This document shows, in pieces, positions 3,733 to 17,799 of a stretch of DNA of 35,153 nt (positions are counted from its first letter, which is position 1; every line of letters starts with the position of its first letter). The notes beneath the pieces were generated by a model that saw only the letters and a program-made list of their open reading frames with translations, had not been told where the DNA came from and made no database searches. The translations under genes and the position numbers were made by a program. Origin of the DNA: a virus; the IMG/VR virus record IMGVR_UViG_3300046012_000297, positions 1 through 35,153 of that record; one strand, given 5' to 3'.

Positions 3733-3806
3733 CGTGACACCGCCATATTCCAGGCCCACGCCAGCAAGGCCAACACAAAGATGGGGAGAGCGATGAGGGC
3801 GATCAT
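3729..3806 (-). CDS. 25-residue membrane peptide
   Basis: Reads MIALIALPIFVLALLAWAWN then MAVSR: almost entirely hydrophobic, long enough for one membrane helix. It starts by ATGA overlap with the stop of the gene upstream and ends by ATGA overlap with the gene downstream, so it fits exactly into the overlap chain; that perfect fit is the main argument that it is a gene. It resembles tiny phage membrane peptides in general properties only. No function is assigned. Confidence 0.55.
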   Translation of the reverse strand: MIALIALPIFVLALLAWAWNMAVSR

Positions 3807-4864: not shown

Positions 4865-4938
4865 TGCCCGCGGCCTGACTCGAACAGGCGGCCTAGAGGT
4901 TAGGAACCCCTCGCTCTATCCAACTGAGCTACGCGGGC
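4865..4938 (-). tRNA. tRNA-Arg(CCT)
   Basis: Full cloverleaf: acceptor GCCCGCG/CGCGGGC, D-arm GCTC...GAGC, anticodon arm AGGGG-TTCCTAA-CCTCT with U33 and anticodon CCU, T-arm GCCTG-TTCGAGT-CAGGC, discriminator A. No CCA is encoded, unlike the four-tRNA cluster at 13268-13668, suggesting a different origin. Its first base directly abuts the stop codon of the HTH gene, in the same direction as the integrase. tRNA-Arg genes are common integration targets, so this may be a captured or reconstituted attachment site; it would read AGG codons. Confidence 0.95.
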
Positions 4939-5145
4939 TCAGCTCGCCTTGCGAAACGTCGTAACTTTCCGGTAGCCGAGCTTGCTGGCGATACCGTCAG
5001 TCACTGGCGTTTTGCCCGTCAATACTTTGCTTAGAAAAGAAATGCTCACGCCAAGATCGCGGGCCAGTTGGCTCTGCGAACGGCTGTCACTGGCTCGCTT
5101 CTTTAGTTCCGCGAGCATCCTTTCGTGCGTGAGTTCCTTAACCAT
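4939..5145 (-). CDS. Small helix-turn-helix regulator
   Basis: 68 residues from ATG 5145. SQSQLARDLGVSISFLSKVL (residues 23-42) is a clear lambda-repressor-type helix-turn-helix: Q-LA--LGVS---LSKVL. No dimerisation or protease domain follows. The ATG overlaps the integrase stop by 8 bases (ATGGTTAA), so both are made from one mRNA, and its stop codon touches the first base of tRNA-Arg. A Cro-like regulator or excisionase substitute is plausible. An upstream in-frame start at 5181 would extend it inside the integrase gene and is less likely. Confidence 0.8.
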   Translation of the reverse strand: MVKELTHERMLAELKKRASDSRSQSQLARDLGVSISFLSKVLTGKTPVTDGIASKLGYRKVTTFRKAS

Positions 5146-6247
5146 GTCTAGTGTTGTAGCCCTTGGAGGAAACAGTGTCAAGAGTTATTTCACTTATTTT
5201 TTCAACAGGTCTTTTTTGCGGGATCGGATGGGGCGCTTCCAGGGCTTCGAGTGCGGCCATCTTGGTGTCGAATTGCTGGATCGAATAGCGGTCTTGCATG
5301 GCTTGCGAGATGTGGCCGGCAATCTCCTTGCTGACCTGGGGAGAGACAGCAGGATTGCTTAAAAGTTTTGTGATTGCTTGAACTCGGCAATCATACACGC
5401 GGAAGTGCGGAAGTCCAGCTTCTTTTCGGATGCTCTCGAAAGCCGAGCGGATCGCGGTCTGTGGCTCATCGAACAGCCATGGTCCGCCGTTGCTCCTGGG
5501 GCGATGAGGGAGGATGTATTGACTCTCTTGGTTCCCTCCAAGGGCTTCCCATCGGTCAATGATCCAGCACATCGAGTCGTAGCCTGCCCGGTTAAGCGGA
5601 ATGGTGCGGTCGCGGTAATCGTTCTTGGCCCCATCGCGCACGGTGACGCACTTGCGCTGCAAGTCCACATCCCGCCTGCGGACATGGCTCAGCTCCCCAA
5701 AGCCCATAGTCGTGGACAGCATGACGGTGATGCAGTGGGCGGCAAGCTGCCACTTCTTGCGGGTGAACGCCACGCGCCGTAGCCGGTCCTCTTCGTCCAC
5801 GGTGAGCGAATGCCCTGCCCGGTGCTTGGGTACCCGGAGCGGGCGATACAGCTCCTTCAGGCTCTTCCAGCAGCGAGCCTCCTGCATAACCATGCCCAGG
5901 ACGCCGATCTCGCCGTTGATCCGGTACCCGCCGGCCTTCGGGCGCCGGTAGTCCTGATAACCGCGCAGATTACCGATGTGGATGTCTTTTAGGGTGATCG
6001 TTCCGAAGAATGGAAGCAGAGCCTTGATCGCGCAGTCATAGCTGCGAATGGTATTGGGTTTGAGATAGCGGCGATGCTCCGCGAGCCATAGCGCAGAGGC
6101 TCGCGCAAAGGGAAGAGAGGACAGCTCTGATTCTTCCAAGGCACGTATACGCTCCAGTTCGCACAACTTACAGGCAATGTGCGGAATGGCGTGAAGGAGA
6201 GGGGGAAATTCCCGCAGCGTATGTATTGATTCCAAATCGTCTTGCAA
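5138..6247 (-). CDS. Tyrosine recombinase / phage integrase (divergent catalytic residues)
   Basis: 369 residues. The N-terminal core-binding region is about 45-135 (ASALWLAEHRRYLKPNTIRS). The catalytic domain follows: box I reads STTMGFGELSHVRRRDVD, where the usual T-G-M-R-x-G-E has Gly182 in place of catalytic Arg I. K208 (DGAKND) may be the catalytic lysine. Box II reads YDCR instead of HxxR, keeping Arg288 but with Tyr285 for His. GH at 311-312 and the nucleophile Tyr321 in DRYSI are present. The first possible start is TTG at 6247; a stop lies 30 bases upstream and no ATG occurs until far inside. Length and the intact frame suggest a living gene of a divergent clade, but reduced activity is possible. 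It mediates integration or excision if active. Confidence 0.88.
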   Translation of the reverse strand: MQDDLESIHTLREFPPLLHAIPHIACKLCELERIRALEESELSSLPFARASALWLAEHRRYLKPNTIRSYDCAIKALLPFFGTITLKDIHIGNLRGYQDYRRPKAGGYRINGEIGVLGMVMQEARCWKSLKELYRPLRVPKHRAGHSLTVDEEDRLRRVAFTRKKWQLAAHCITVMLSTTMGFGELSHVRRRDVDLQRKCVTVRDGAKNDYRDRTIPLNRAGYDSMCWIIDRWEALGGNQESQYILPHRPRSNGGPWLFDEPQTAIRSAFESIRKEAGLPHFRVYDCRVQAITKLLSNPAVSPQVSKEIAGHISQAMQDRYSIQQFDTKMAALEALEAPHPIPQKRPVEKISEITLDTVSSKGYNTRHG

Positions 6248-11042: not shown

Positions 11043-13106
11043 GTGGACGAATTCTGCGCCTATATCGACTCGCTGGTGGACATGGACGCGAACAGCGTCA
11101 ACCGCTACTTTTCCTGGAAGCAGGGCAAACGCCCCAACGACAAGCGCCTGAAGTGGATCGAGCGGTGGGTGGAAAACGAGCAGTTTCTATGCTTCGCATC
11201 GGCGGAATACTTTGTCACCCGCTACGGGAGAATCCGCTCGGCGGAGGAGCGGATCATCAACTTCGAGTACCGCGATGCGCAGCGCATCTTTCACGCCATT
11301 CTGGCCGAGTCCGACCGCTCGCAGGTAGCGATCCAGATGTTTGTGTTGAAGTGCCGGCAATTGGGCGTCTCTACGGTGGTCGCGCTTTACTTCCTGCATC
11401 GCATTCTCTTTCGCCCCAACACCCATGCGGTCATGGCCTCGGTCCAGGCTCAACAGTCGGAAAAGCTGGGCAAGATGATCGACACCACCTGGACGCGCCT
11501 GCCCTTCTGGCTGCCTCCGGCAAAGACGATCCTGAAAGAGCGCGAACCGCAGTGGGCCAACGGATCGGCGCTGTCGATTCAGTCCGGCAACCAGGAAGTC
11601 GGCATCGCGCAAGGCTCGACGCCTACCTGCGTGCATATTTCCGAAGTCGGCGATTACAAGAGCCCGAAGCGAACCCTCGAAGAGGGCCTATTCCCCGCCT
11701 GCCATCCCACGTCAAGCCTGTTCCTGGTGCTCGAAGGCACGGGCAGCACCTCCTCCACGTGGCAGAAGGAGAAGTGGGATTTCTATTCCGCGAACTGGGG
11801 CAACGGAGGCCGCTTCCGGCCGGTGTTTATTCCTCCGGCGTGCGCCGGCGATCTCTACCCCCATCCCGACTGGATGCGGGGCAACCCCATTCCGGAGGCG
11901 TGGCGGCCGATGGAGGAGACGCGGAGGATGCAGCGGCGGGCAGAACTCTATGTGCGCTCGACCGACTATCTGTCCGCGGTGATGGGCGCCGGATGGGCGA
12001 TGGCCCGCGAGTACATGTGGTTTTGGGAGACGCGTTGGAAGGAGGCGGTGGCCTCGCATTCCGAGAAAACGTTTTTGTCGCAGTACGCGTGCTCTCCCGA
12101 GGAGGCGTTCCAGTCGAAGTTCGATCCGGTCTTTACGGATGAAACCATCGAGGTTGTGACGCGCGAGCGCGAGCAGGAGTACAAGGCATACGCCATTACC
12201 GGCAAAACCATTCTGATGGGCCAGGACAACGCGCCCTATCAGCCTGGCCCGGACGATATCGACTGGGACGCGCCGCGCGTGGAGCTTCACTGGGAGGCCA
12301 ACGACGGCAACTGCTATGACTGGGAGCTGGTGCCGCTCATGCCCTTTGACGATTCGGACGATGTGCGCTGCTTCGACAAGCTGCTGATTTTTCAGGAGCC
12401 GCAAGCCGGAGCAACTTATTCCGAGGGGATCGACACAGCGGATGGCCTGGGCCTGCCGAACGAGGACCGGTCAACCGTGAGCGTCCATATCGCGCGGCAG
12501 GGACGAGAGCGGGATGAGCAAGTGGCGGCCTTCACCTCGTTGCGGGTGAACTCAGCGCAAATGTCCAGGATCGCGGCGGCCATCGCGGTCTACTTCACGA
12601 CGGACGGCTCGGGAGGGATCACCTCGGCGAACCCGATGGGAATGCGTTTCATTACCGAGCAGATACGGAAAACGGGAGACGAGTGCCAGCTCCAGCTAAA
12701 GATCATGGGCTTTTACGACCACCACGTCATGCACTTTTACGACGAGAAGGGCAATATCGACCCGAACCGGGGCAACAAAGAGGGCTGGCGCACCTCCAGA
12801 TGGTCGCGCCCGTACCTGTTGACCAAGTTCGTGGAAGCGGTGACCGGGGGCTGGTTCAAGCCTAACTGCCCCATCCTGATCCGGCAGCTCAAGACCTTTG
12901 TGCGCAAGGAAAAGAACGGCATCTCCGAGATGGGCCACGAATCCGGCCAGCACGATGACAATATCTTCTCGAACGCGATGGCGTACCTGACCTCGCACGA
13001 TATGGAAAACACCGCTGCCCGCATGGAGGAGAAGTACCGGCCCAAGGAAGTGCCAAAAGGGCAGGTAGACACGCGCTGGGCCTCGAATAGTGTTTGCATT
13101 AGCTAG
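11043..13106 (+). CDS. Terminase large subunit
   Basis: 687 residues from GTG 11043. The ATPase half has KCRQLGVSTVVALYFLHR (103-120), the usual degenerate Walker A of large terminases, and VHISEVGDY (197-205) as Walker B with catalytic Glu201. The nuclease half has EGIDTADGLG (461-470) with Asp464 as first metal ligand and HDDNIFSNAMA (637-647) as the last acidic motif, so both domains look intact. It cuts and pumps phage DNA into the prohead. The frame remains open with coding-like sequence for 60 codons upstream, without ATG, GTG or TTG; GTG 11043 has no Shine-Dalgarno, while GGAGG at 10942-10946 is well placed for a non-standard ATC start at 10956. The true N-terminus is therefore probably longer. 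Confidence 0.93.
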   Translation: MDEFCAYIDSLVDMDANSVNRYFSWKQGKRPNDKRLKWIERWVENEQFLCFASAEYFVTRYGRIRSAEERIINFEYRDAQRIFHAILAESDRSQVAIQMFVLKCRQLGVSTVVALYFLHRILFRPNTHAVMASVQAQQSEKLGKMIDTTWTRLPFWLPPAKTILKEREPQWANGSALSIQSGNQEVGIAQGSTPTCVHISEVGDYKSPKRTLEEGLFPACHPTSSLFLVLEGTGSTSSTWQKEKWDFYSANWGNGGRFRPVFIPPACAGDLYPHPDWMRGNPIPEAWRPMEETRRMQRRAELYVRSTDYLSAVMGAGWAMAREYMWFWETRWKEAVASHSEKTFLSQYACSPEEAFQSKFDPVFTDETIEVVTREREQEYKAYAITGKTILMGQDNAPYQPGPDDIDWDAPRVELHWEANDGNCYDWELVPLMPFDDSDDVRCFDKLLIFQEPQAGATYSEGIDTADGLGLPNEDRSTVSVHIARQGRERDEQVAAFTSLRVNSAQMSRIAAAIAVYFTTDGSGGITSANPMGMRFITEQIRKTGDECQLQLKIMGFYDHHVMHFYDEKGNIDPNRGNKEGWRTSRWSRPYLLTKFVEAVTGGWFKPNCPILIRQLKTFVRKEKNGISEMGHESGQHDDNIFSNAMAYLTSHDMENTAARMEEKYRPKEVPKGQVDTRWASNSVCIS

Positions 13107-13227
13107 GACAAGGGGATATAGTCATTGACAATGAAGTTCGCCAGTCCAGTCACGACCTCAACACCGTCCGCATCAGCGGCGGAGGGGTGGCGTCTGGCGT
13201 AAACGAGAGTTTAGCTAGAAGTGCCAA

Positions 13228-13252
13228 CCCCCTCCCAGCGAGGGGGTTTTTT
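13228..13252 (+). terminator. Rho-independent terminator after the large terminase
   Basis: CCCCCTC, loop CCAGC, GAGGGGG, then TTTTTT. A perfect 7-bp GC stem with six T residues. It closes the terminase transcript, and the tRNA cluster starts 16 bases later, so the tRNAs must be transcribed by read-through or from an unseen promoter. Confidence 0.9.
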
Positions 13253-13267
13253 ATTGCTCGTCGAATT

Positions 13268-13356
13268 GGAAGGTGGCGCAGAACGGTCTGCAATCGGTCC
13301 TGAAAACCGTGCCATGGTGATGAGTCATGAGGGTTCGATTCCTTCACCTTCCGCCA
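13268..13356 (+). tRNA. tRNA-Ser(TGA), C33 variant
   Basis: Acceptor GGAAGGT/ACCTTCC, D-stem GCAG/CTGC, anticodon arm CGGT-CCTGAAA-ACCG, long variable region (class II), T-arm GAGGG-TTCGATT-CCTTC, discriminator G and encoded CCA. Class II shape and G73 fit serine. Position 33 is C rather than U, and there is no U at the normal position 8. It would read UCA. First of four tRNAs. Confidence 0.85.
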
Positions 13357-13360
13357 AGAA

Positions 13361-13417
13361 GGAGGCTCCCAATGAGGTTCGCGGCCTCTGGGTGAAAGTG
13401 GGGACGCCCTAGCCTCC
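13361..13417 (+). other. Nested inverted repeat between two tRNAs, possible tRNA remnant
   Basis: GGAGGCT (13361-13367) pairs with AGCCTCC (13411-13417), like a 7-bp acceptor stem. Inside it CCCA pairs with TGGG, and GAGG-TTCGCGG-CCTC forms an arm with a 7-base loop like an anticodon arm reading CGC, the same anticodon as the next tRNA. No T-arm is present and the element is only 57 bases. It could be a decayed tRNA or a processing structure. Confidence 0.4.
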
Positions 13418-13426
13418 GATGATTTT

Positions 13427-13502
13427 GGGCCTATAGCTCACATGGGAGAGCGCCGGTTTCGCACTCCGGAGGCAAGTGGTTCGATTCCACTTAGGTCCAC
13501 CA
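13427..13502 (+). tRNA. tRNA-Ala(CGC)
   Basis: Acceptor GGGCCTA/TAGGTCC contains the G3-U70 wobble pair that defines alanine tRNAs. D-stem GCTC/GAGC, anticodon stem CCGG/CCGG around TTTCGCACT (a U-U mismatch next to the loop), U33 present, anticodon CGC. T-arm AGTGG-TTCGATT-CCACT, discriminator A and encoded CCA. It would read GCG. Unlike its three neighbours it keeps U33. Confidence 0.9.
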
Positions 13503-13507
13503 GATGT

Positions 13508-13584
13508 CCGGGTATAGCGCAGCCTGGAAGCGCACTCCGCCTGGGACGGAGGGGTCGGTGGTTCAAATCCATCTACCCGGACCA
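13508..13584 (+). tRNA. tRNA-Pro(TGG), C33 variant
   Basis: Acceptor CCGGGTA/TACCCGG beginning with C1 as usual for bacterial tRNA-Pro. D-stem GCGC/GCGC, anticodon arm CTCCG-CCTGGGA-CGGAG with a perfect 5-bp stem, anticodon UGG, discriminator A, encoded CCA. Position 33 is C instead of U. It lies 5 bases after tRNA-Ala and would read CCA. Confidence 0.93.
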
Positions 13585-13592
13585 ACGCACGA

Positions 13593-13668
13593 GCCCGGTT
13601 AGCTCAGACAGAAGAGCGGCGGTCCTGTAAACCGATGGTCGCGGGTGCAACTCCTGCACCGGGCTCCA
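13593..13668 (+). tRNA. tRNA-Thr(TGT), C33 variant
   Basis: Acceptor GCCCGGT/ACCGGGC, D-stem GCTC/GAGC, anticodon arm CGGT-CCTGTAA-ACCG, anticodon UGU, T-arm GCGGG-TGCAACT-CCTGC, discriminator U and encoded CCA. Position 33 is C, and the T-loop has G where the conserved pseudouridine-55 would be. The anticodon arm differs from that of tRNA-Ser by one base. A Tyr(GTA) reading is rejected because its stem would not pair and the variable loop is short. Confidence 0.88.
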
Positions 13669-13731
13669 AAAATATTCCAAAAGCGCAACTCTTGCAGAAT
13701 ATATGAGCGAGTTGTGCTACGATTCCCTGCA

Positions 13732-14205
13732 ATGCACAACGCACAACTTGGCTCAAAAGAGCGAACCTGTGTCTATGTTGAATTGGACACCAAGCGAATT
13801 CTCGGCTTCGCGCCGGAATTTGTGCAGGCGGTGATTCCGGCAGGCATCCGCTATACCGAATACACCCTCGTCTCGGCGCGGGAGATTGAGCGGTGGGTGG
13901 GGCGCTACCGGGAGCAGCAGCAACGCGATGCCGAAGAGGCGAGTTACCGGCAATTGATGCGGGAAAAGGGATTCCGGGATGCGCTGAAGTCTTCCATTCG
14001 CGCCCGCAATTCTCAGGTCAACTTATTCAATCGAGAGCTAAACAACGTGCTCATCCGCCTGATGGATGAACGCTACGAGGCCATGCTCAAGGCGAAGGCC
14101 AAGCCGGAAGTCTTTGGAGCGGCGGAGGCGTGGGAAGCGGGCAAGGATGGAGAAGACGTGGCGCTCGAAAACCCTCTGCTTCGCTTGAGGCCGGAGAATG
14201 CCTGA
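13732..14205 (+). CDS. Hypothetical protein between tRNAs and portal
   Basis: 157 residues from ATG 13732. Upstream in-frame sequence runs into tRNA-Thr and is not used. The N-terminal third is beta-rich (TCVYVELDTKRILGFAPEFV); the centre is a long charged helix or coiled coil (ERWVGRYREQQQRDAEEASY). No family recognised. It overlaps the portal start by 8 bases, so it is part of the packaging/head operon. No Shine-Dalgarno is visible; instead GTTGTGC (13711-13717) can pair with GCACAAC (13734-13740), placing the start codon in a hairpin. Confidence 0.7.
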   Translation: MHNAQLGSKERTCVYVELDTKRILGFAPEFVQAVIPAGIRYTEYTLVSAREIERWVGRYREQQQRDAEEASYRQLMREKGFRDALKSSIRARNSQVNLFNRELNNVLIRLMDERYEAMLKAKAKPEVFGAAEAWEAGKDGEDVALENPLLRLRPENA

Positions 14206-16222
14206 GCCAAAGACGCCGGAATGGCAGGCCCCTCCGGTGGAGGCTACCGGGGAGCGGCGCAAGGGCTGGTTCGATGAACTGGTGCAGAACGGGGACCGCT
14301 GGAATCACTCCCAGATCGGCACGCGCGACATCAACGAAGACATCAAACTCCTGATCGGCCTCGACCAGGACAACGACCTCAAATCGAATACCCTCCAGCC
14401 CAACATCCGCACCTTTGTCGAGACCATTACAGACCTGCGGCAGATCGCCACGCTGGGATCGAAGGCGGAGCAGTTCAAGACCACGGTTGCCGCCTACAAT
14501 CACGCGCTCAAATATGTTTTCTGGGATTCGCATTTTGTGTGGAAGTCGCGCAAGGCGCTGCAATACGCCATGCTGGGCTGCGGCTTTCTCTGGACTAAGT
14601 TTTCCCGCGATCACTACGGCTGGGGCAAAGGGCGGATGGTATTCGATGCCCTGGGGCCGCTCGAAGTTTTGCCCGAGCAGCTTCCCCCGGACAACGACAT
14701 TCAGGGCTGCTATGCGGCCACGATCATGCGTGCGATGCCGATTGCAGAGGCCCATGCGCGCTTCCCGCAGTTCCAGGAGTGGCTGAAGCCTATCTCCCGC
14801 TACGACTGGACCAAATACAACACCCTGGGCGGGCCGCGGCTAGACTTCTGGGACCGCTGGCGCTTCGGGCGCGAGGGCAACGACTGGGACAACCGCTATT
14901 GCGAGTTGCGCTATCACCTGATCCGCGATCTGCGCATCAACGATACCGGGCGCACCCTGCAAATGGGGGTTGCCGGCACGACGTGGGGCTATACCGTCCC
15001 CTCGATGGGCGACCTGATCGTAACGACCAACCCCTTCAACGGCCTGCCCGAATCCAGAAAGGCCACGGAGGAGGATTGCCGGGTCTATCCGCAATTGCGC
15101 CTCGCCATCACTAGCCCATCCGTCCCGGTTCCGATGTACGACGATACCGGCTTCGACTGGCATGGAGAGATTCCCCTCGCGCAATACGATGTGAACGATT
15201 GGGCGTGGTCGGCGCGCGGCTACTCGGCAATCCGCAATGTGGCCGGACTGGCGAAGGCCCAGCGGGCGCGGCTGTCCGAGATCAACGAAGTTCTGGCGGT
15301 TCGCAAAGACCCGCCCACCGGCTACGACTACTCCTCCGGCGTGGCGCGGACGCAGATGGAGAAGCTCGACCTTCTGCGCGCTCAAGGCGTGCGCATCGGG
15401 CTCAAGGGCGACCCCAAGAAGGCGGTCGTTTCCGTGCTACCCGATTCGATCACGGTCGATGCCGACGATTGGAAAGCGCAGGAGTTTTACGACGCGGCCA
15501 TCAAGTCTTCGCTGGGGCTATCGGACATCGCATCGCTGCGCGACCTCAAGATGAACATGTCGGACCAGAACTTCGACAAATTTATCGAGAACCTGGGGCC
15601 GATGGCCAAAGGCATCGCGGTCAACATGTGGCGGGCGCACGGCAAGATCGCGCAGATGCTGAAATACAACATCGCGCAATATATTCCCGTGGACGAGCTG
15701 GTGAAGATGGTCGGCCCCGAAGGGGTCAGCCTCGAAACCTACGACAATGACCCGCTCTCGCTCATTCCCGGACGGCTGCCGGGGGAAGTGTCCTCCTCGG
15801 AATCGCGCTTCACGAAACGGCAGCGGGCGCAATGGTTTGTCGAGCAGCTCAACGTGGTATCGACACCGGCGCAGTTGCTCAACATCACCCAACAGCAGGA
15901 GAAGATGCTCTACATGTTCTTTCTGCAGAAGGGCGTGCCTATCTCCCGCTCCACCACCATGGAAAAGCTGGGCGTGCAGGGCTACGAAGTCGAGTACGAG
16001 AAGTGGAAGGCGGAGCAGATCGCGGAAGCGGAGTGGAAGCTCGAAGTCCAGGCTGTGCTTGCCGCGAAGACGAAGGAGTTGGGACTCCAGCCTCCGCCGG
16101 AGCAAGGTCCAGGCCAAGGCAAGGGCGGAGGGCGCCCGGCAACCGGAGCCAAGCCTCCCCATGCCGAAATGAAGGGCTCTAAAGACGGCAATGTTCGCGT
16201 AGTCAACTCGCAAAGCAAGTGA
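14198..16222 (+). CDS. Portal protein (by position and size)
   Basis: 674 residues. Portal proteins form the dodecameric ring at the head vertex through which DNA passes. The call rests on size, position between terminase and scaffold/capsid, and a sequence of alternating helices and short strands; characteristic parts are DDLKSNTLQPNIRTFVETIT near residues 58-77 and a glutamine/glycine/proline-rich C-terminus (PPPEQGPGQGKGGGRPATG). Similar overall arrangements occur in portals of short-tailed phages. The ATG lies in an 8-base overlap with the previous gene, with GAGG further upstream. I do not recognise a precise family. Confidence 0.75.
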   Translation: MPEPKTPEWQAPPVEATGERRKGWFDELVQNGDRWNHSQIGTRDINEDIKLLIGLDQDNDLKSNTLQPNIRTFVETITDLRQIATLGSKAEQFKTTVAAYNHALKYVFWDSHFVWKSRKALQYAMLGCGFLWTKFSRDHYGWGKGRMVFDALGPLEVLPEQLPPDNDIQGCYAATIMRAMPIAEAHARFPQFQEWLKPISRYDWTKYNTLGGPRLDFWDRWRFGREGNDWDNRYCELRYHLIRDLRINDTGRTLQMGVAGTTWGYTVPSMGDLIVTTNPFNGLPESRKATEEDCRVYPQLRLAITSPSVPVPMYDDTGFDWHGEIPLAQYDVNDWAWSARGYSAIRNVAGLAKAQRARLSEINEVLAVRKDPPTGYDYSSGVARTQMEKLDLLRAQGVRIGLKGDPKKAVVSVLPDSITVDADDWKAQEFYDAAIKSSLGLSDIASLRDLKMNMSDQNFDKFIENLGPMAKGIAVNMWRAHGKIAQMLKYNIAQYIPVDELVKMVGPEGVSLETYDNDPLSLIPGRLPGEVSSSESRFTKRQRAQWFVEQLNVVSTPAQLLNITQQQEKMLYMFFLQKGVPISRSTTMEKLGVQGYEVEYEKWKAEQIAEAEWKLEVQAVLAAKTKELGLQPPPEQGPGQGKGGGRPATGAKPPHAEMKGSKDGNVRVVNSQSK

Positions 16223-17013: not shown

Positions 17014-17799
17014 ATGGCTTTTACGATTGACGACCTCGCCAGCGAACTTGGAATTGACGCCGCAACCCTGAAGCCCGATGCCAGGGCGAAGTGGAACGGC
17101 TACCTCACGGAAGCCGATACCAAGTACCAGCAGGCCACCACGGCGCAGAAGGATGCCGAAGCCAAGCTCAAGCAGGTGATCGAAGAGCAGAAGGTCATCG
17201 ATCAGAACATCTCGTCCTTCGGCATGACCGAAGCGAATGTGATCGCTCTCCGGGCCAACAATGCCGCAATGGAGGCGACCCTGAAGACTCTCAAATCGCA
17301 AGGACTCGACGTGAATATTCCCGAAGCTCCCGCGGCCCCCAAGCAAGATCAGTTCGACCCCACAAAATTCCAGCAGGACGTGAACCAGTCCTTGATCCTC
17401 GGCTTCGACATGAACAACCGCTACCAGCGGCTCTACGGTACGGCGATGCCCGATGATCTCTCGGTTCTCTTGCGGGAAGCTACTCAGGCCCGCCAGCCGC
17501 TTCAGCAGTATGTGGCCGCAAAGTACGACTTTGCCGGACGCGAGAAGTCGCAGCGCGAGGAAGCGCAGAAGAAGCATGACGATGGGATTCGCGCCGCTGC
17601 GGTGAAGGAGTACCAGGAAGCCCACCCGGTCACGCAGGGCAACCCCGAGCTTCAGCGCGGAGTTTCATCCAGGCATCCGCAGCTTGCCAAACCGCGCGAG
17701 GGCGCGGACGGAAAAACATTCGCCAACCTTCCGGCGCGGCAGAAGATCGCTCAATCGGTGGGGCGCACGCGCCAGGCTCTGGCGGCAAATCAGTCTTAA
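17014..17799 (+). CDS. Candidate scaffolding protein
   Basis: 261 residues, with AGGAG upstream of ATG 17014. Composition is that of phage scaffolds: mostly charged helix, a likely coiled coil at about 33-65 (DTKYQQATTAQKDAEAKLKQ and on), glutamine and alanine rich, and a basic C-terminus (ARQKIAQSVGRTRQALAANQ) that could touch capsid protein. It lies directly before the probable major capsid gene with an 17-base gap. Scaffolds direct prohead assembly and leave before DNA packaging. Sequence similarity to a known family is not recognised. Confidence 0.7.
   Translation: MAFTIDDLASELGIDAATLKPDARAKWNGYLTEADTKYQQATTAQKDAEAKLKQVIEEQKVIDQNISSFGMTEANVIALRANNAAMEATLKTLKSQGLDVNIPEAPAAPKQDQFDPTKFQQDVNQSLILGFDMNNRYQRLYGTAMPDDLSVLLREATQARQPLQQYVAAKYDFAGREKSQREEAQKKHDDGIRAAAVKEYQEAHPVTQGNPELQRGVSSRHPQLAKPREGADGKTFANLPARQKIAQSVGRTRQALAANQS

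Follow-up and report, generated by a model that had tools for sequence, protein, structure and literature searches.

Cytidine at position 33 in three of four clustered tRNAs of a GC-rich phage, a recurrent variant of phage tRNAs

Introduction

Position 33 is among the most conserved bases of tRNA, its uridine (U33) makes the U-turn, and why phages carry tRNA genes is a long-standing question. Here we ask why three of the four tRNA genes clustered in one phage encode cytidine at this position (C33). The stretch analyzed, hereafter "the window", is a 35,153-base IMG/VR record with a GC content of 0.60, i.e., a fragment of an integrase-bearing phage that encodes a terminase, a RecE-like exonuclease, an Erf-like annealing protein, and an integrase.

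Results

Genomic context of the tRNA cluster

The features on which the analysis draws are, in order along the window:

4865..4938, minus strand: tRNA-Arg(CCU), U33, without encoded CCA (ARAGORN; Rfam 63.7 bits); adjoins the integrase gene
5138..6247, minus strand: tyrosine integrase (Pfam PF00589, 1e-9; phrog_1 integrase, 7e-28)
11043..13106, plus strand: large terminase subunit (phrog_5989, 1e-13), directly upstream of the tRNA cluster
13226..13248, plus strand: terminator-like hairpin with a T tail, between terminase and first tRNA (two overlapping forms of one hairpin)
13268..13356, plus strand: tRNA-Ser(UGA), loop CCTGAAA (C33), CCA encoded, apparently diverged (from the sequence; Ser model, 47.3 bits)
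13427..13502, plus strand: tRNA-Ala(CGC), loop TTCGCAC (U33), U31-U39 mismatch (ARAGORN; Rfam 58.2 bits)
13508..13584, plus strand: tRNA-Pro(UGG), loop CCTGGGA (C33), every stem paired (ARAGORN; Rfam 56.6 bits, no non-standard pair)
13593..13668, plus strand: tRNA-Thr(UGU), loop CCTGTAA (C33), G27-A43 mismatch, unusual D loop (ARAGORN; Rfam 51.6 bits)
13732..14205, plus strand: small gene, start set by eye, inside the ORF at 13645-14205

The nearest named relatives of the window terminase are those of the Tunturiibacter phages Tunturi_1/2 (30% identity over 95%), which suggests a host among the Acidobacteriota. Adjacency to the integrase gene and the missing CCA indicate that tRNA-Arg(CCU) is probably the attachment-site tRNA of a temperate phage. 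For the terminator-like hairpin, shuffled sequences give an expectation of 0.8. Six IMG/VR relatives, all fragments, encode terminases with 57–66% identity to that of the window, and none of the six carries a tRNA cluster between the terminase and the next gene; one record has a single weak tRNA elsewhere. A likely counterpart of the small gene, itself without a match in the family search, lies directly 3′ of the terminase in five of the six (similarity judged by eye), while in the window the cluster separates the two. The cluster was thus either gained in the window phage or lost in its relatives, and since they lack it the six are of no use for judging C33 conservation. Searches for further relatives with the 674-aa protein that follows the cluster, with the integrase, and with nearby DNA returned none.

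Three C33 tRNAs, one of them fully regular

Direct reading of the anticodon arms (Ser, TCGGT-CCTGAAA-ACCGT; Pro, CTCCG-CCTGGGA-CGGAG; Thr, GCGGT-CCTGTAA-ACCGA), together with ARAGORN and Rfam, confirmed the central claim of a preliminary description of this locus, i.e., C33 in tRNA-Ser(UGA), tRNA-Pro(UGG), and tRNA-Thr(UGU), and likewise U33 in the tRNA-Ala(CGC) of the cluster and in tRNA-Arg(CCU). The uridine with which an elongator tRNA makes its U-turn is therefore missing from Ser, Pro, and Thr. The identity of the Ser gene required separate support: ARAGORN makes no call at 13268-13356, and Rfam returns only a tRNA-Sec match of 36.5 bits, below the gathering threshold of 47. It does reach 47.3 bits (E 2e-9) with a model derived from 23 tRNA-Ser genes of phages, for which reason we take this tRNA to be real, if apparently diverged; two other C33 phage Ser genes reach 89.9 and 70.6 bits with the same model. 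The missing ARAGORN call suggests that gene finders may overlook such tRNAs.

The remainder of each molecule is more uneven than first described. The stems, said to be intact, are so in tRNA-Pro, but the outer anticodon-stem pair 27-43 is unpaired in Ser and Thr, and encoded CCA, found in all four tRNAs of the cluster, does not extend to tRNA-Arg(CCU). Pro thus folds into a fully paired cloverleaf, Thr and Ala have one non-standard pair each, and Ser has its outer anticodon pair open. By eye, the conserved elbow bases (G18 G19, U55 C56) are normal in Pro and Ala; in Thr the usual G18 is missing and G replaces U55 in the T loop. Visible decay elsewhere in the C33 tRNAs, named in the preliminary description as counting against its reading, is accordingly present in Ser and Thr and absent from Pro. 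Because the U33 tRNA-Ala has a U31-U39 mismatch, such irregularities are not limited to the C33 tRNAs.

The Ser and Thr arms share a 15-base core that differs by a single anticodon base, from which the set had been proposed to derive by copying of one arm between the two genes. This step proved unnecessary, and we hold it to be the least credible of the explanations considered: the arm of a bacterial tRNA-Thr(UGU) (genome G172) equals that of the window Thr except at positions 32 and 33, U33 phage tRNA-Ser(UGA) genes have the same CGGT/ACCG stem, and Pro, with a different stem, also has C33.

Frequency and structural soundness of C33 in phage tRNAs

In two IMG/VR samples drawn blind to base 33, 1,435 distinct parsed tRNAs comprised 1,406 with U33, 22 with C33, 5 with A33, and 2 with G33 (the IMG/VR matches listed are not random draws; the counts of these samples, those of the loci found via a C33 tRNA-Pro, and the pooled U34 counts keep distinct sequences only). 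The C33 share of 1.5% (22/1,435) is matched by seven other conserved sites, which change at 0.9–2.2% in the same sample, so that position 33 does not on average stand out from the other conserved positions of phage tRNAs. C33 rises with GC content, from 5/1,075 tRNAs in loci below a GC of about 0.45 to 17/360 in loci at or above it.

In structure, C33 tRNAs are roughly as intact as their U33 counterparts. A search for tRNA-Pro(UGG) with CC at 32-33 gave at least 120 IMG/VR matches, many of which are not tRNAs; among the matches listed, 36 distinct sequences are ARAGORN-called C33 tRNA-Pro, 81% of them without an unpaired stem position. Across three samples, unpaired stem positions (dots in the ARAGORN bracket line, usually two per open pair) averaged 1.36, 1.0, and 0.29 in C33 tRNAs, against 0.98, 1.33, and 1.34, respectively, in U33 tRNAs; A33 and G33 tRNAs (7, 2, and 2) were degenerate, with 4–6 such positions.

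These data bear on whether the window tRNAs are turning into pseudogenes, with C33 as one of several lesions. The missing ARAGORN call for Ser, the further irregularities of Ser and Thr, and the rarity of the ACA, TCA, and CCA codons in the window are what decay would predict. However, Pro is fully paired, CCA is retained, and three of the four tRNAs share one substitution at one position, which is not a pattern of random decay. Moreover, C33 recurs in structurally sound phage tRNAs, which makes simple decay an unlikely cause of C33 itself; the earlier judgment that decay was less likely thus stands for the substitution and needs qualifying for Ser and Thr. Overall, we regard decay of the cluster as improbable.

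Two further occurrences were seen among phages: Mycobacterium phage I3 (L378) has C33 in both tRNA-Val(CAC) and tRNA-Val(GAC) (14492-14565 and 17301-17373), and tRNA-Met(CAU) genes with the loop CCCATAA (C33) lie at 3758 of locus L067 and 3291 of locus L081, the former initiator-like by eye. An initiator role was discarded for the window C33 tRNAs, none of which is Met.

Near absence from bacterial chromosomes

We then compared phages with bacterial genomes. One exact class-I pattern matched 4 C33 and 116 U33 tRNAs in the general phage sample, among the matches listed. In the phylum of bacterial genome G001, the C33 form of this pattern was found in 0 of 299 genomes, while by our own summation the U33 form gave 173 matches in 40 genomes; scaling the latter to 299 genomes (about 1,290 U33 expected) gives p = 5e-5 for the absence of C33. 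It is hence unlikely that the window phage infects a host with C33 tRNAs, given the absence of the pattern from these 299 genomes of one phylum.

Across 84,980 species genomes, the tRNA-Pro C33 pattern matched four times. One match, contig MEIF01000040.1 (L367), is binned in a MAG of Gammaproteobacteria AqS3 but is phage-like (holin, DNA methyltransferase), and three of the four tRNAs in its 8-kb stretch (Thr, Ala, and Pro) have C33. Another lies near a sub-cutoff integrase match. In two Veillonellaceae MAGs with similar sequences (L369, L370), the pattern matches a C33 tRNA-Pro(UGG) whose anticodon stem is fully paired; ARAGORN reports no C33 tRNA there. The U33 form occurs in 26/40 and 14/149 genomes of two phyla, a comparison in which the two patterns also differ at base 32 (C being fixed in the C33 form). 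C33 is therefore almost, although not wholly, absent from bacterial chromosomes.

A conserved C33 in phage tRNA-Ile(GAU)

The average rate conceals one isotype in which C33 is common. Among the 80 listed of 120 IMG/VR rows in an Ile scan blind to base 33, 34 were C33, 45 U33, and 1 A33 (30, 40, and 1 distinct tRNA-Ile(GAU) sequences, respectively). In general scans, Ile(GAU) made up 52 of 93 C33 tRNAs vs 3 of 114 U33 tRNAs with the same arms; this pattern sample draws its C33 tRNAs from two scans and its U33 tRNAs from a single scan, covers matches listed only, and requires at least four anticodon-stem pairs, by which 7 C33 and 2 U33 tRNAs were dropped. In bacteria, the C33 form of tRNA-Ile(GAU) was found in 0 of 120 genomes and the U33 form in 5 of 21 (p = 3e-6 for the absence after scaling).

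The loop CCGATAA (C33) is present in 11 of 11 chosen isolates (L498-L508), a figure that expresses conservation inside the group and not frequency, as the isolates were reached by two C33 Ile queries (ten picked from 40 spread rows, one from the 12 best rows). They span Straboviridae, Demerecviridae, Schitoviridae, Vequintavirinae, Kleczkowskaviridae, and others, and include Aeromonas phage 65.2, Klebsiella phage IME260, Vibrio phage River4, and Stenotrophomonas phage Paxi. Stems and acceptors vary among the 11 while the loop is constant, 10 of the 11 have no unpaired stem position, and all other parsed tRNAs in the short stretches around them are U33. Isolates with U33 tRNA-Ile(GAU) also exist, in four rows among isolates fetched for other reasons, including one phage with two such tRNAs.

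With base 33 masked, a tree of the Ile tRNAs requires 16 or more changes among its 106 rows, although 76 bases resolve little and this count has no shuffle control. Base-33 labels of nearest neighbors agree in 71 of 89 cases vs 47.4 in shuffles, in a set whose counts are biased against C33 because reused loci are missing from the listing. Since about two in five listed rows have C33 and the base is conserved in the chosen isolates, tRNA-Ile(GAU) goes beyond what weakened constraint would give, and selection for C33 is probably the better reading of this isotype.

Co-occurrence of C33 within loci

In loci found via a C33 tRNA-Pro, 32 of 283 other tRNAs were C33, about three times the GC-matched expectation by our arithmetic on GC bins; the count leaves out the 36 C33 tRNA-Pro used for ascertainment, and the pooled association set drops all TGG tRNAs of these loci. 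Clustering of C33 in unbiased loci was weak after GC matching (p 0.04 and 0.09). For the window, at least three C33 among four tRNAs has P = 4e-4 at the rate in GC-rich phage loci (17/360), and 5e-3 at the 32/283 rate of phages already holding a C33 tRNA-Pro; the ARAGORN-called genes only (two of three C33) give P = 6e-3 at 17/360. All three values overstate the surprise, because the window was selected for its odd appearance.

Within the C33-tRNA-Pro loci, including L367 and INPHARED loci, tRNAs with UGN anticodons were C33 in 8/30 cases vs 28/250 for others (p 0.037, one of several post hoc tests). All UGN tRNAs are C33 in three stretches with three of them each: Ser, Pro, and Thr in the window, Ser, Ala, and Pro in that of L071, and Thr, Ala, and Pro in that of L367. 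This pattern gives a hint of a common target. The U33 tRNAs of the C33-tRNA-Pro loci depart from consensus more often at U55 (6%) and A58 (5%) than those of the unbiased sample (0.9% and 1.1%), which favors a general looseness of tRNAs in these loci.

Coherent C33 sets would also arise, without loss of the U-turn, if an enzyme edited C33 to U33 after transcription and so left an ordinary tRNA, for which C8-to-U8 editing in Methanopyrus tRNAs is a precedent. Many phages, however, have one C33 tRNA among U33 ones, and we consider editing very improbable.

Several sequence correlates were considered and set aside. C33 shows no tie to U34 or the cmo5U34 class (U34, 25/956; non-U34, 36/987; OR 0.71, p 0.2), and carry-over from a C33 Ile to other GAN tRNAs of the same locus is unsupported (1/30 vs 14/546). 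A purine at 35 accompanies C33 in 44 of 61 pooled tRNAs (within-locus shuffles, 30.8; 0/5000 reach 44), still so without Ile (OR 2.1, p 0.011), and in 72/93 C33 vs 56/114 U33 tRNAs of the pattern sample (p 3e-5); we do not rely on this link, as it is gone from the pattern sample once Ile(GAU) is removed (20/41 vs 53/111). In the pooled tRNAs, and uncorrected for many tests, C33 is more frequent with C36 (OR 2.3, p 0.004) and in family boxes (OR 1.7, p 0.048) and less frequent with A36 (OR 0.38, p 0.03).

Codon boxes matched by the cluster

The isotypes of the cluster coincide with the full set of four codon boxes whose second base is C, i.e., Ser, Pro, Thr, and Ala, and all four anticodons have G35. 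In the 5,811 codons of 11 window ORFs, codons of the NCA type make up little of their boxes (TCA 3%, CCA 7%, and ACA 7%), while TCG (39%), CCG (49%), ACG (41%), and GCG (44%) are the first or second commonest within theirs. NCG codons are readable by U34 and C34 tRNAs; if U34 wobbles to G, the cluster would serve common codons.

Possible escape from tRNA-cutting defenses

Another explanation is that C33 removes the U33 read or cut by host defenses (PrrC, RloC, other HEPN nucleases, Cas13a, or MazF-like toxins), such that phage tRNAs outlast cut host tRNAs. PrrC and RloC are described as cutting 3′ of U33 (PMC2610378), and LshCas13a as cutting mainly at the first anticodon nucleotide, its preferred targets being Lys, Glu, Gln, and Thr(UGU) tRNAs (PMC11042736). 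Phage tRNAs reportedly restore infection in the face of PARIS, retron-Eco7, and PrrC. Thr(UGU), one of the three window C33 tRNAs, is a described target of Cas13a and PARIS (PMC11042736, PMC12409363). The near confinement of C33 to phages, its frequency in phage tRNA-Ile(GAU), and the co-occurrence among UGN tRNAs are likewise consistent with escape.

The isotypes mostly do not match the targets, however. C33 is not enriched on U34, as the odds ratio above indicates; Lys(UUU), which PrrC and PARIS classically target, accounts for 4/93 C33 vs 11/114 U33 tRNAs; and Thr(UGU) for 8/93 vs 36/114, i.e., without enrichment. The source passages drawn on here do not name Ile(GAU), the main C33 isotype, as a target of PrrC, Cas13a, or PARIS, and among the papers listed by a search of the open-licence PMC literature no nuclease cutting this tRNA at 33 was apparent. 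Since C33 does not follow U34 and the isotypes mostly mismatch the targets, nuclease escape is possible but unproven for the window, a serious candidate to which we nonetheless give distinctly less than even confidence. For phages more widely, and above all for Ile(GAU) and the UGN sets, we consider it possible, if somewhat doubtful, that C33 is selected because some host nuclease family reads or cuts U33 while the U-turn tolerates C.

Discussion

The substitution of C33 for U33 is recurrent, nearly confined to phages, and spares the rest of the tRNA. For the window cluster we tentatively favor, at a little under even confidence, weakened selection on the supplementary tRNAs of a GC-rich phage under T-to-C pressure, which we place slightly ahead of nuclease escape. 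The four tRNAs would be real and probably working supplements for the boxes with C as second base, with expression, charging, decoding, and the cause of their retention inferred; under T-to-C pressure, three of them would have passed from U33 to C33, as opposed to a single dedicated adaptation. By analogy with other U-turns, in which cytosine is established to fit, decoding would be expected to survive, perhaps weakened. That C33 tRNAs are structurally intact and recurrent argues that they still work.

Weakened constraint fits the C33 rate near that of other conserved sites, the GC trend, and the irregular Ser, Thr, and U33 Ala of the cluster. Counting against it are the 34 of 80 listed Ile(GAU) rows, the C33 co-occurrence, the UGN sets, and the rare NCA codons.

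Known systems offer partial parallels. Eukaryotic initiator tRNA has C33 and thus exemplifies the base in a functional tRNA, while the window tRNAs include no Met or initiator. Phage tRNA-Ile(GAU) with the loop CCGATAA shares with the window tRNAs a C33 in an otherwise intact phage tRNA, but there it is widely conserved and stands alone among U33 neighbors, whereas in the window C33 is shared by three tRNAs, none of them Ile. Mycobacteriophage I3 (Bixzunavirus), which we take to belong to cluster C1, has C33 in two Val tRNAs, as the window has in Ser, Pro, and Thr. Mycobacteriophage tRNAs with altered anticodon loops, a feature shared with the window, have been proposed to escape nucleases (van den Berg et al. 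2023, PMC10264068); the argument there rests on comparison with an established host and the VapC targets in it, unlike the one here, and the main-text passages of it drawn on here contain no mention of "position 33" or "U33". T5 tRNAs are described as resisting the PARIS nuclease AriB, and these phage variants, Thr(UGU) among them, stand in for the host tRNAs that have been cut; AriB cuts the anticodon stem (C40-A41) and T5 resistance is reported around there, whereas the window change is at 33 (PMC12409363).

The window cluster thus belongs to a recurrent phage tRNA variant of which we found no description in the open-licence PMC literature, i.e., no account of cytidine at 33 of phage tRNAs, which is not proof that it is unpublished. 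Avoided by bacterial chromosomes yet kept by phages, as in those Ile(GAU) rows, C33 is a single-base handle on the role of phage tRNAs, and the contrast between C33 and U33 would set a cost in decoding against protection from tRNA-cutting defenses.
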